From Bacteroidia bacterium (GTDB lineage: Bacteria > Bacteroidota > Bacteroidia > UBA4408), in NCBI GenBank assembly GCA_020845635.1, contig JADLFI010000018.1:62001-126000 (forward strand): a stretch of 64,000 nucleotides of DNA, in the 5' to 3' direction. The notes under the pieces are model-generated. The model had not been told where the DNA came from, did no database searches, and saw only the letters and a program-made list of their open reading frames with translations. Each line of letters starts with the position of its first letter. Positions within the stretch are counted from its first letter, which is position 1. This document shows positions 21,344 through 53,741 of the stretch, in pieces. Made by a program: the position numbers and the translations under genes.

Positions 21344-22144
21344 CTATTCAATTGTAAAACTATCAGCATCATTAATTACCGGGAAAGTACTTCTTAACTT
21401 GTTTAAATAATCAAAATCTAAGCTAAGCGTTTCAGTATTTTCCTCATTAGGTAAAATGTTACTGATTACTTTTCCCAAAGGGTCAATAATTACCGAATCG
21501 CCTGAGTAAGTGATGTTATTTCCATCAGTACCTACCCGATTAACCCCAATAACATAACATTGGTTTTCAATAGCACGCGCTACCAATAAACTTTTCCAGG
21601 CATGGCTACGTACTTCCGGCCAACTGGCAACATATATCAACACATCATACAAAGGACTGTTGGTATTATTTTTTGAACTGAAATTACGACTCCAAACGGG
21701 AAATCTTAAATCGTAACAAACCAAGGGGCATATAGTCCATTTATTAATTGTAGCAATAAGTTTGGAGTTCCCAGAATCATAAAAACTGTTCTCATTAGCC
21801 ATCCTAAATAAATGACGTTTATCGTATTGCAATGAAGTGCCATCCGGTAAAACCCAAAGTAAACGATTGTAATATTTGCCATTATCGTGTACTACAACGC
21901 TTCCGGTTATAACAGCCTTTTTTTTGGCAGCCATTAATTGCATCCATTGTGTAACTTCGCCATTAGGAGTATCGGCAACTTTATGAGGCTCCATAGTAAA
22001 GCCCGAAGAAAACATTTCGGGCAGCACTATAAGTTGAGTGGGAGTATTTATTTTATTAATTAACTCTTCAATACGTAATAAATTAGCTTCGCGATTGTGC
22101 CAAGCTAATGATGTTTGAATGATTGATACAGCAAGGTTACTCAT
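21344..22144 (-). CDS. Carbon-nitrogen hydrolase (nitrilase/omega-amidase, YafV-like)
   Basis: LPEMFSSGFTMEP, YDKRHLFRMANE, CPLVCYDLRFPVWSRN catalytic E-K-C motifs. Start MSNLAVS at 22144. Confidence 0.88.
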   Translation of the reverse strand: MSNLAVSIIQTSLAWHNREANLLRIEELINKINTPTQLIVLPEMFSSGFTMEPHKVADTPNGEVTQWMQLMAAKKKAVITGSVVVHDNGKYYNRLLWVLPDGTSLQYDKRHLFRMANENSFYDSGNSKLIATINKWTICPLVCYDLRFPVWSRNFSSKNNTNSPLYDVLIYVASWPEVRSHAWKSLLVARAIENQCYVIGVNRVGTDGNNITYSGDSVIIDPLGKVISNILPNEENTETLSLDFDYLNKLRSTFPVINDADSFTIE

Positions 22145-22154
22145 ACTTCTTAAT

Positions 22155-23309
22155 TTAAATAGAACATAATTTTTCAGCAGCTTTCTCGAGTGTGGAGTTC
22201 TCTTTTGCAAAACAAAAACGTAACACTTTATTATCAATTTTGCGATGGTAAAAAACCGATACCGGAATAGAAGCTACCCCATACCGGGTAGTTAGTATCT
22301 CGGCAAATTTTATATCACTTTCCTGACTTATTTTATCATATTTCAATATTTGAAAATAGGTACCGTTGCATGGAAGTAGCTCAAATTTTGAGTTTTTTAA
22401 TAAGGATTGAAAGTAATTTCTTTTCTCGGAATAAAAATTACCTAAATTCAAATATTCTTCGGTACGCGCCATAAATTCTGCTAAAGCCAGTTGCACCGGG
22501 TGATTTGCCGAAAAAACCAAAAACTGATGCACTTTTCTGAACTCATTCATTAAATTTATGGGGGCTAAACAATATCCCATTTTCCAACCTGTGGCGTGAT
22601 AGGTTTTACCAAAAGATGAAATGATAAAACTTCTTTCTGCAAGCCGTGGGAAACGTGCCACACTTTGATGTTCATTCGAATCAAAAACAATATGTTCATA
22701 CACTTCATCACTCAGCACCACAATATCGGTATTTCTAATAAGTTTTTCAAGGTTCATTAAGTCTTCTGTGCTAAGTATGCTTCCTGTAGGGTTATTAGGA
22801 TTATTAATAATTATCATTCGAGTATGCTTGTTTATTAGCTTTCTCACATCATCCCAATTAATACTGTATTCAGGGAATTTTAGCTGCACAAAAATAGCCT
22901 TGCCTCCATTAAGTTCAATGGCCGGAATATAACAATCATAAGCAGGTTCAAAAACTATAACTTCATCGCCTTCGTTTACAATTGCAGAAATGGCCGTGTA
23001 AATAGCTTGTGTTGCTCCCGAAGTAATTGTTATTTCAGTATCAGGATTGTATTTAGTATTATATAAATCTTCAACTTTTTGGGCTACAATTTCACGTAAC
23101 TTCATCGAGCCCGCCATGGGTGCGTACTGGTTATAGCCTTTTTTCATGTATTTGCTCACCAGATTTATTAAGTCGGTCGAAACAGAAAAATCCGGAAACC
23201 CTTGAGCCAAGTTAATGGCATTATGTTCAACAGCCATTTGGCTCATAACTGTAAATATGGTTGTTCCGGTGGTTGGAAGTTTTGATCTTAAGGCGCCTGA
23301 ATATTGCAT
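22155..23309 (-). CDS. Methionine aminotransferase-like class I/II PLP aminotransferase
   Basis: NLAQGFPDFSVS, NNPNNPTGSILS, SSFGKTYHATGWKMGYCLAP (PLP lysine). Confidence 0.88.
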   Translation of the reverse strand: MQYSGALRSKLPTTGTTIFTVMSQMAVEHNAINLAQGFPDFSVSTDLINLVSKYMKKGYNQYAPMAGSMKLREIVAQKVEDLYNTKYNPDTEITITSGATQAIYTAISAIVNEGDEVIVFEPAYDCYIPAIELNGGKAIFVQLKFPEYSINWDDVRKLINKHTRMIIINNPNNPTGSILSTEDLMNLEKLIRNTDIVVLSDEVYEHIVFDSNEHQSVARFPRLAERSFIISSFGKTYHATGWKMGYCLAPINLMNEFRKVHQFLVFSANHPVQLALAEFMARTEEYLNLGNFYSEKRNYFQSLLKNSKFELLPCNGTYFQILKYDKISQESDIKFAEILTTRYGVASIPVSVFYHRKIDNKVLRFCFAKENSTLEKAAEKLCSI

Positions 23310-24115
23310 ATACTTTCTTTACTTTTTTTAGCAAAATTATTGATTTAAAGCTAAAGAGAAAATGTATGTTTATTTTGTTTGTTACGAATGACCATATTAA
23401 AATACCATCTAAAGTAAATATCTAAGTGCATATTACAGAATATAGTGGCTTTAATACCTTGATTTTATTATAAATGGATTACCTATTAATTACAAGTTGT
23501 GTTAAAATTATTCCTACTCGGGAATCAAAACAGTTTTATTTCACTTATTTATTGCTGCTTTTTTGGAGTTGAATTTCAATTCATCTTTTATTTATAGTAT
23601 AACAAGATTAATAGCTTATATCTTTTTGTTTGATAAGTAAGGTGCTTTTTACACGTTAGCTTAATGCAAAGCTTGTTACTTCAGCAAATTACTTATCCCG
23701 TTTATATTCGTTTTCTTATTATTTACCTTTTTTAAATGAAATTGGTAATGTTGAGGTAATTAATACTTTAGTATGCTCATCTTATTCAGTGATGGTTAAA
23801 ACCAATATGTCTAACAACATAACTCTTTATTATTTAAATTTGTTAATCATAGCGTGTAAACCTCTATTATATTTGTTTCAGATTGAAAAAATATTAAAGA
23901 GGTATTAGGGCATGTGGTAATATTTAATTCTGATAAAGTATTAGGTATTGAAACTTTTTTCTACAGTATATAAAAATGATTAATATATTGAGTTATGGTA
24001 AAAGCATTTATTCTTTTGAAGTTTCACTTCATTCTGAAAAGTCATAAACAGAACTGAGATAATATGATAATTCTTTACTTGTTATTAAATTTATAAAACA
24101 TTAAATTCATTAAAT

Positions 24116-26778: not shown

Positions 26779-27126
26779 TTAGTTTTGATTTTTAGGCTGC
26801 CCTACCATCAAAAACTCGTTAACTACAATCTCGGTAACATATCGTGTAATCCCATTTTTATCGGTATAGTTGCGATTGGCAATTTTTCCCTCTATGGCAA
26901 CTTCCGACCCCTTTCTTAAATAGTTCTCGGCAATTGAGGCTTTATTTCCCCAGGCCACTATATTATGCCAGGTGGTATCTTTTACCGGATTACCTTTGGC
27001 ATCCTTGTAGGTTTCTGATGTTGCTATACTAAATCGGGCTACTTTCTTGTTGTTCATGGCTGATTTAATTTCAGGATTCATTCCCAAATTACCAATTAAT
27101 CTTACGGAGTTTCTTAAATTATTCAT
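26779..27126 (-). CDS. ssb: Single-stranded DNA-binding protein, copy 1
   Basis: OB-fold SSB: NSVRLIGNLGMNPEIK...WHNIVAWGNKASIAENYLRKGSEVAIEGKI. No acidic C-terminal tip. Confidence 0.92.
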   Translation of the reverse strand: MNNLRNSVRLIGNLGMNPEIKSAMNNKKVARFSIATSETYKDAKGNPVKDTTWHNIVAWGNKASIAENYLRKGSEVAIEGKIANRNYTDKNGITRYVTEIVVNEFLMVGQPKNQN

Positions 27127-27171: not shown

Positions 27172-27513
27172 TTAGTTACTTTTTGATCCTAACATTAAAA
27201 TTTCACTTACAATAATTTCGGTAACATATCTTTTTACACCTTCTTTATCATTATAACTGCGACTTGTAAGTTTGCCTTCAATAGCTACTTCGTTCCCTTT
27301 TTTTAGGTATTTCTCTACTATCTTTGCTTGATTTCCCCAAGCTATAAGATTATGCCATTGTGTTTCGGTAACTTTCTCGCCTTCTTCGTTTTTGTAGGTT
27401 TCGTTTGTGGCAATGCTGAACTTGGCCATCTTTTTGTCATTGGCAATTTCTTTAATTTCAGGGTTCATACCCAAGTTACCAATTAATCTTACGGAGTTTC
27501 TTAAATTTTTCAT
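27172..27513 (-). CDS. ssb: Single-stranded DNA-binding protein, copy 2
   Basis: Clear paralogue of the neighbouring ORF (NSVRLIGNLGMNPEIK...WHNLIAWGNQAKIVEKYLKKGNEVAIEGKL). No acidic C-terminal tip. Confidence 0.92.
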   Translation of the reverse strand: MKNLRNSVRLIGNLGMNPEIKEIANDKKMAKFSIATNETYKNEEGEKVTETQWHNLIAWGNQAKIVEKYLKKGNEVAIEGKLTSRSYNDKEGVKRYVTEIIVSEILMLGSKSN

Positions 27514-36640: not shown

Positions 36641-37674
36641 ATGATTATTTCGTTTCGGGGAAGAGTAAATATAGTCGAAATTTTACGCCTGATTGCCTTT
36701 AATGAACAAAGAAAATACTTACTTTTTCTGGTGATACTTCATGGAGTAGCTACAGGTTTAAATAATTGCATCAATTGTATTTATAAATCTATCATCATAG
36801 TGTTTACAACTATCTTACAAATAGAAAAAGAGTTAATAAAAAGTACCGATACAGAAGTGAATAAAGTATCGCATTGGTTGAGAGAATTTGAGAATCTTAC
36901 TATTTCCTACATTCCGGTTATTGTTTTAGCTGTTCTATTGTTCTTTCTTGGGTTGTGGGGTATTCGTATAATGTTATTGGGGCTGAAAAAAGGTTTAAGA
37001 AAAAACATTACGACCCTGCCTTACAGCTATTCCTAATTTCGGTTATACGCTTAGTTTTATTTGTAGTACTTTTCATCTTAATAGCAGGTGTTTTAGGCCT
37101 AAATATTACAGGCATTGCGGCTTTACTTGCGGGAGCCGGTTTGGCAGTGGGTTCTGCACTTAATGGCACTTTAGGGAATTTGACCGGAGGGGTAATGATA
37201 TTGCTCTTAAGGCCTTTTAAAGTTGGCGATTTAATTGAGGCGCAAGGGTACTTTGGTACGGTGCATGAGATAGGAATAGTTTATACCATTCTTATCAATG
37301 CCGAAAATAAAACTATTCTTTTGCCTAATGGAAATTTGAGTACAGGTATTATTACCAATTATTCCCAACAAAATAACCTTAGGATTAACTTGAAGTTTCC
37401 TTTAAAATCAGATGTAAATATTGATAAGGCACGTGAAATTGCTATACAAGAAATTTTGAAATGTAACGGAACAATAAAAGAACTTGCTGAGGCCTGGGTT
37501 ACTGATATTTCTGAATCGCAGATTACCTTACAAATTAGTTGCCGCATTCAAATTATACCTTATGATTATAAAAATCATCAACAATACCTGAAAGACTATT
37601 ATAGAACTTATTACACACTAAACGAAAATATCGTTAAAGCTTTTATTGATAATAATATTTATAAAAATACTTAG
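36641..37674 (+). CDS. MscS-family mechanosensitive channel, reading frame split by a -1 shift near 37000-37006
   Basis: Frame-2 ORF (36641-37036) supplies the N-terminal TM region ending GLKKGLRK. Frame-1 ORF (from 36955) supplies KHYDPALQLF...AALLAGAGLAVGSALNGTLGNLTGGVMILLLRPFKVGDLIEAQGYFGTV. The two halves join into one MscS domain only through a -1 shift. Confidence 0.8.
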
Positions 37675-52803: not shown

Positions 52804-53569
52804 AATTTAAATTTTTATATAATATCAAAATGATATCACAAAGATATGAAAATAATTTTTTAAACTCCAAATTTTTCTTGAAAAAATTTTTGCATCATTC
52901 AAAATAATCAATTAAAACTATGCAGCATCAACCAATTAATACATTTTAAATAGATTAATAATCAAATTTGTTTTATATCAATTTGATTTGGGTCCGATAA
53001 TACCATTATCTGGATGGCAATCGGCTTTTTTGTAGCTATTTATATTAAAAGTATTGTTGGCAATGTAAGTTTAAAATTTAGCTGCTTTAGTGGTTATATC
53101 TGTTACTAAGTACCAAAGGATTTATTTTTTTGAAGATAATTAAAACAAGTCTTTTATTTTAAATTAGTTTTTAATATATAAATGATGTTTGTTTTATTTG
53201 TTTGACGGGATATCATCTCTCAGAATCACTATTCCGATAATGATGCCATGTTTTATCTAACAAATGCTAGCTTGCAAATTCAGACAATGGCGCACTGAGT
53301 ACTAACAAAACCACTATTTTACTAAATCAATATTATACAACATGTTGAACGTGTTATTAGCCTAACCAAATTCCTCAAAATGCCGGGCTATATACAGTCT
53401 TGTTCGCAATAATCCGAAGAACTTAACCCAATAGCGACTCAAATATTAACTTTTCCTTATAGAGACTATATGACTATGCCGTAAACAATAGATAAGCTCA
53501 ATATTGTTCGTTTATTTAAACATAATTATTTATGTGTTTCGAGTCTCATCATACCTTAATCTTCATCAT

Positions 53570-53586
53570 AATATATATATATATTT
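53570..53586. repeat. Short (AT)n tract
   Basis: ATATATATATATATATT-like run in the intergenic region. Confidence 0.6.
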
Positions 53587-53677
53587 AATTTGGGTAACTA
53601 AAGGCCTCAACATCACAAGAAAATACCTAAATAATTTTTTGACAATGTTAATTTATGTTTTTAAGTATAAATATTAT

Positions 53678-53715
53678 ACTATGGAAACTTTTATTATAAA
53701 ATTAGTTTCCATAGT
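53678..53715. promoter_or_regulatory. Candidate TetR-family operator: ACTATGGAAACT-N14-AGTTTCCATAGT
   Basis: Perfect 12-bp inverted repeat ending about 26 bp before the TetR-like start codon. Confidence 0.6.
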
Positions 53716-53741
53716 TTTGCGCCTGATTTTTGAAATTAAGG

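Follow-up and report, generated by a model that had tools for sequence, protein, structure and literature searches.

Programmed -1 frameshifts in bacteria, such as those of dnaX and the IS3-family elements, take place at slippery heptamers of the X_XXY_YYZ type. In E. coli, ribosomes shift far less readily on A_AAA_AAC than on A_AAA_AAG (PMC5009743), and a cluster of mobile elements with A_AAA_AAC represents a proven shift for which the stimulator is not established (PMC4066793). Most frame transitions that are unclustered and validated by homology are expected to stem from sequencing errors or indel mutations, and among homology-validated singletons errors in sequencing are expected to outnumber genuine indels (PMC3711429). 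A split gene in the window analyzed here, a 64,000-nucleotide stretch of a Bacteroidia genome, can be compared with each of these groups. It shares the X_XXY_YYZ-type heptamer with the dnaX and IS3-family shifts, but its site is accompanied by neither conservation nor any downstream structure that we could find, its heptamer is of the weaker kind in E. coli, and there is no known need for two products from the gene. Like the singleton frame transitions and pseudogenes, it is a single case, homology-validated and unconserved in relatives, differing from them in that it happens to bear an in-phase A_AAA_AAC. With the small-conductance mechanosensitive channels of the MscS family in Bacteroidota (PF05552 plus PF00924) it has in common the domain order, the start region and the core motifs GAGLA.G.ALNG.LGN..GG and PFKVGDLIE, although its frame is broken near codon 68 and its protein is more diverged. 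The split gene looks like an ordinary broken gene: very probably a single MscS-family gene from which one base has been lost, by mutation or by sequencing or assembly error, with the heptamer as a by-product.

The upstream frame reads AGA (from 36998) AAA AAC and ends at a stop codon at 37034-37036, and the frame at -1 relative to it is open from 36892 to 37671. The first-pass annotation had located an AAAAAAC in A_AAA_AAC phase at this point and had proposed that a -1 shift there gives a continuous MscS channel; sequence, translation and Pfam bear out that description. MS_channel_1st_1 (PF05552, 22.4 bits) was matched in the upstream part and MS_channel_2nd (PF00924, 59.6 bits) in the downstream part, consecutively and each in its own frame, so the transmembrane helices and the beta domain typical of the family are both present. 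By homology, the two parts form one MscS-family channel gene that a -1 shift unites. The features of the locus are as follows.

36800-37036, plus strand: upstream part of the MscS gene, 78 codons from a probable GTG start, with the N-terminal region and first helices (MS_channel_1st_1)
36892-37674, plus strand: downstream open frame with TM3 and the MscS beta domain (MS_channel_2nd), homology from about 37004, stop codon 37672-37674
36641-36799, plus strand: in-frame extension up to ATG 36641, probably noncoding judging from relatives' starts and weak codon-position bias
36974-37007, plus strand: zone of the frame change by homology, with flat profile HMM scores
36986-36991, plus strand: first six-A run, in phase CTG AAA AAA GGT, no canonical heptamer
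37000-37006, plus strand: AAAAAAC, in phase A_AAA_AAC

The N-termini of relatives read M.LLQI or similar and align with MFTTILQIEKE as read from GTG 36800. Because of this alignment, ATG 36641 is probably not the start, and translation probably begins near GTG 36800; base composition across 36641-36799 has only a weak codon-position bias.

The position of the frame change was examined by joining the two frames at each codon from 36917 to 37034 and scoring every product with a profile of relatives. Scores were flat at 258.1-259.3 bits for joins between approximately 36974 and 37007, and lower on both sides. Since the scores do not discriminate within this zone, which also contains the other six-A run (36986-36991), the earlier statement that the gene is split "exactly" at the heptamer is not established, though the heptamer is a likely place for the change.

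Relatives were drawn from 80 loci found in a scan of a genome collection and from further loci in genomes of the class. In the alignment, a single ORF crosses the site in about 90 well-matching relatives, the nearest being 48% identical, and no in-phase slip heptamer is conserved among them there (six-A runs were flagged anywhere within the segment, whatever their phase). The nearest, the best match in the genome collection, is from Arachidicoccus rhizosphaerae (L033), with which the window protein also shares a C-terminal insertion; among 395 genomes drawn from the class, the best match had 41% identity. No close orthologues, which would show how this stretch read before the break, were found in the genus, family or order, nor in viral contigs, and the conservation result thus applies to relatives at most 48% identical rather than to the species level. 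The orthologue alignment that the first-pass annotation had suggested as a check shows one uninterrupted frame in relatives, at that distance.

Two MscS relatives are themselves split, at other positions (L103, 2700-3240; L054, 3000-3900). The frame of L103 is broken by a single-base change at a different six-A run, approximately 12 codons upstream of the site in the window, and that of L054 by a single-base change in its C-terminal part. A third short ORF among the relatives (L107) starts near a contig end. Single breaks scattered in this way are what one expects from random indels or assembly errors.

The heptamer occurs at chance frequency and is not an unusual motif. AAAAAAC was counted 57 times in the window versus 55.5 expected from shuffles. 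The 49 ORFs of the window hold 56 in-phase A6N heptamers, nine of which are A_AAA_AAC (the copy in the MscS gene and eight others), and ORFs sampled from the genome (330 kb) carry A_AAA_AAN in phase at about one per kb. We also simulated base loss: every A run of at least seven was shortened in silico by one base, and canonical heptamers in phase were sought no more than 16 bases away. The deletion left such a heptamer 51% of the time, compared with 9% for control deletions at random places; for A_AAA_AAN alone the figure was 47%. Heptamer and frame break are therefore not independent coincidences, and because a run of at least seven A that loses one leaves a heptamer about half of the time, a slippery heptamer found in phase where a gene is split says little for recoding in AT-rich genomes.

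Our inference is that a mutation or error, not a programmed signal, accounts for the frame break, and that the base was lost from the second run, 37000-37005. One base would be missing from a short A-rich stretch, most likely from that run, interrupting the frame of an MscS gene that starts at about GTG 36800, and A_AAA_AAC would be what automatically remains once a longer run of A with this phasing has lost one. The loss would be either a genuine, recent mutation in a gene that is dispensable and fast-diverging, or an error of sequencing or assembly, with similar odds for genuine mutation and sequencing error. As it stands, the sequence would encode a short, probably useless product of 78 codons, and any full-length channel would arise only via background slippage. 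One-base loss and sequencing error, two of the four explanations in the first-pass annotation, fit the evidence alike; the other two, a programmed shift and transcriptional slippage, fared poorly.

Several observations concern the dispensability of the gene. Three sibling genomes contain no close copy of it. Two of them (G001 and G003) keep the UbiA-like and Maf neighbours with no mscS beside them, and because synteny with the siblings is lost on the downstream side, there is no clean empty site. Another MscS-like gene, this one intact, is present in the same genome, and the siblings have similar genes. Of 50 conserved columns, the window protein retains 36 and its nearest relative 41 (leave-one-out median 96%), and the profile score of the window protein is below those of all relatives tested (25/25). 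This divergence suggests relaxed constraint. Decay would be recent or absent, since 260 downstream codons are open and the core MscS motifs are kept.

A programmed -1 ribosomal frameshift at A_AAA_AAC, favoured in the title of the first-pass annotation, would let some ribosomes make the whole channel while the remainder end with a short two-helix product; we consider it very unlikely. The X_XXY_YYZ phase is correct, the 0-frame stop follows about 10 codons downstream, the downstream frame is intact, and A_AAA_AAC does serve some mobile elements, but the site is unconserved in the relatives found, none of which carries it, and the heptamer occurs at chance frequency and is far less shift-prone than A_AAA_AAG in E. 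coli. A downstream hairpin had been proposed as a further check; folding without pseudoknots revealed no stimulatory structure better than shuffled sequence (z +0.97 versus shuffles over 51 nt, where the MFE is -2.8 kcal/mol, and z -0.03 over 83 nt). The absent hairpin does not itself exclude programming, because the proven A_AAA_AAC case in mobile elements has no established stimulator (PMC4066793). As a candidate Shine-Dalgarno-like stimulator, the 25 nt upstream offer only the short G tracts GGGG and AAAGG. Mechanosensitive channels go unmentioned in two surveys or reviews of recoding (PMC3711429; PMC5009743). There is an equally slim chance that a lineage-specific shift at this heptamer, acting without a structural stimulator, regulates the amount of MscS channel; if true, this would be a rare example of a recoded channel gene.

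Slightly less probable is transcriptional slippage on the A run, putting some of the mRNAs back in frame. In its favour, two six-A runs fall inside 20 bases of this AT-rich gene, but in many bacterial genomes A/T runs are commonly selected against from about nine bases on, which is read as a mark of slippage, and eight A have been called non-slippery (PMC1088944). Six A are thus shorter than the approximately nine or more A/T expected of a slippage site. Moreover, genome-wide data on transcription indels in E. coli and Buchnera include no case of a restored reading frame (PMC5574713).

A phase-variable contingency locus, with the A run toggling between six and seven copies, is more doubtful still: L103 is likewise broken at a six-A run, but at a different place, the runs are short, and A/T runs of at least six occur at 3.5 per kb in the window. 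Least probable of all are two separate proteins, the downstream frame being translated by coupling from its own start (for example, GTG 36955, in the overlap of both frames), since a start there would prefix the conserved segment with non-homologous residues and relatives encode a single chain.

The frameshift rate of the genome was sampled from stretches totalling 431 kb. None of the 56 sibling ORFs with a confident match there was split, a small sample, and estimated genome completeness was 99.99%. The assembly is therefore not obviously error-ridden, yet both figures are still compatible with one error in an A run. Within the window, an overlapping ORF pair at 21344-23309 was considered as another split gene and rejected, as Pfam gives two different proteins. 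On the minus strand, an aminotransferase-like ORF and a carbon-nitrogen hydrolase ORF share 83 bases (22155-22237); the second probably starts further in. The window is dense apart from two stretches of 0.8-0.9 kb without a 100-aa ORF (23310-24115 and 52804-53729). Adjacent genes for single-strand binding proteins, each with a full SSB domain, lie at 26779-27126 and 27172-27513.
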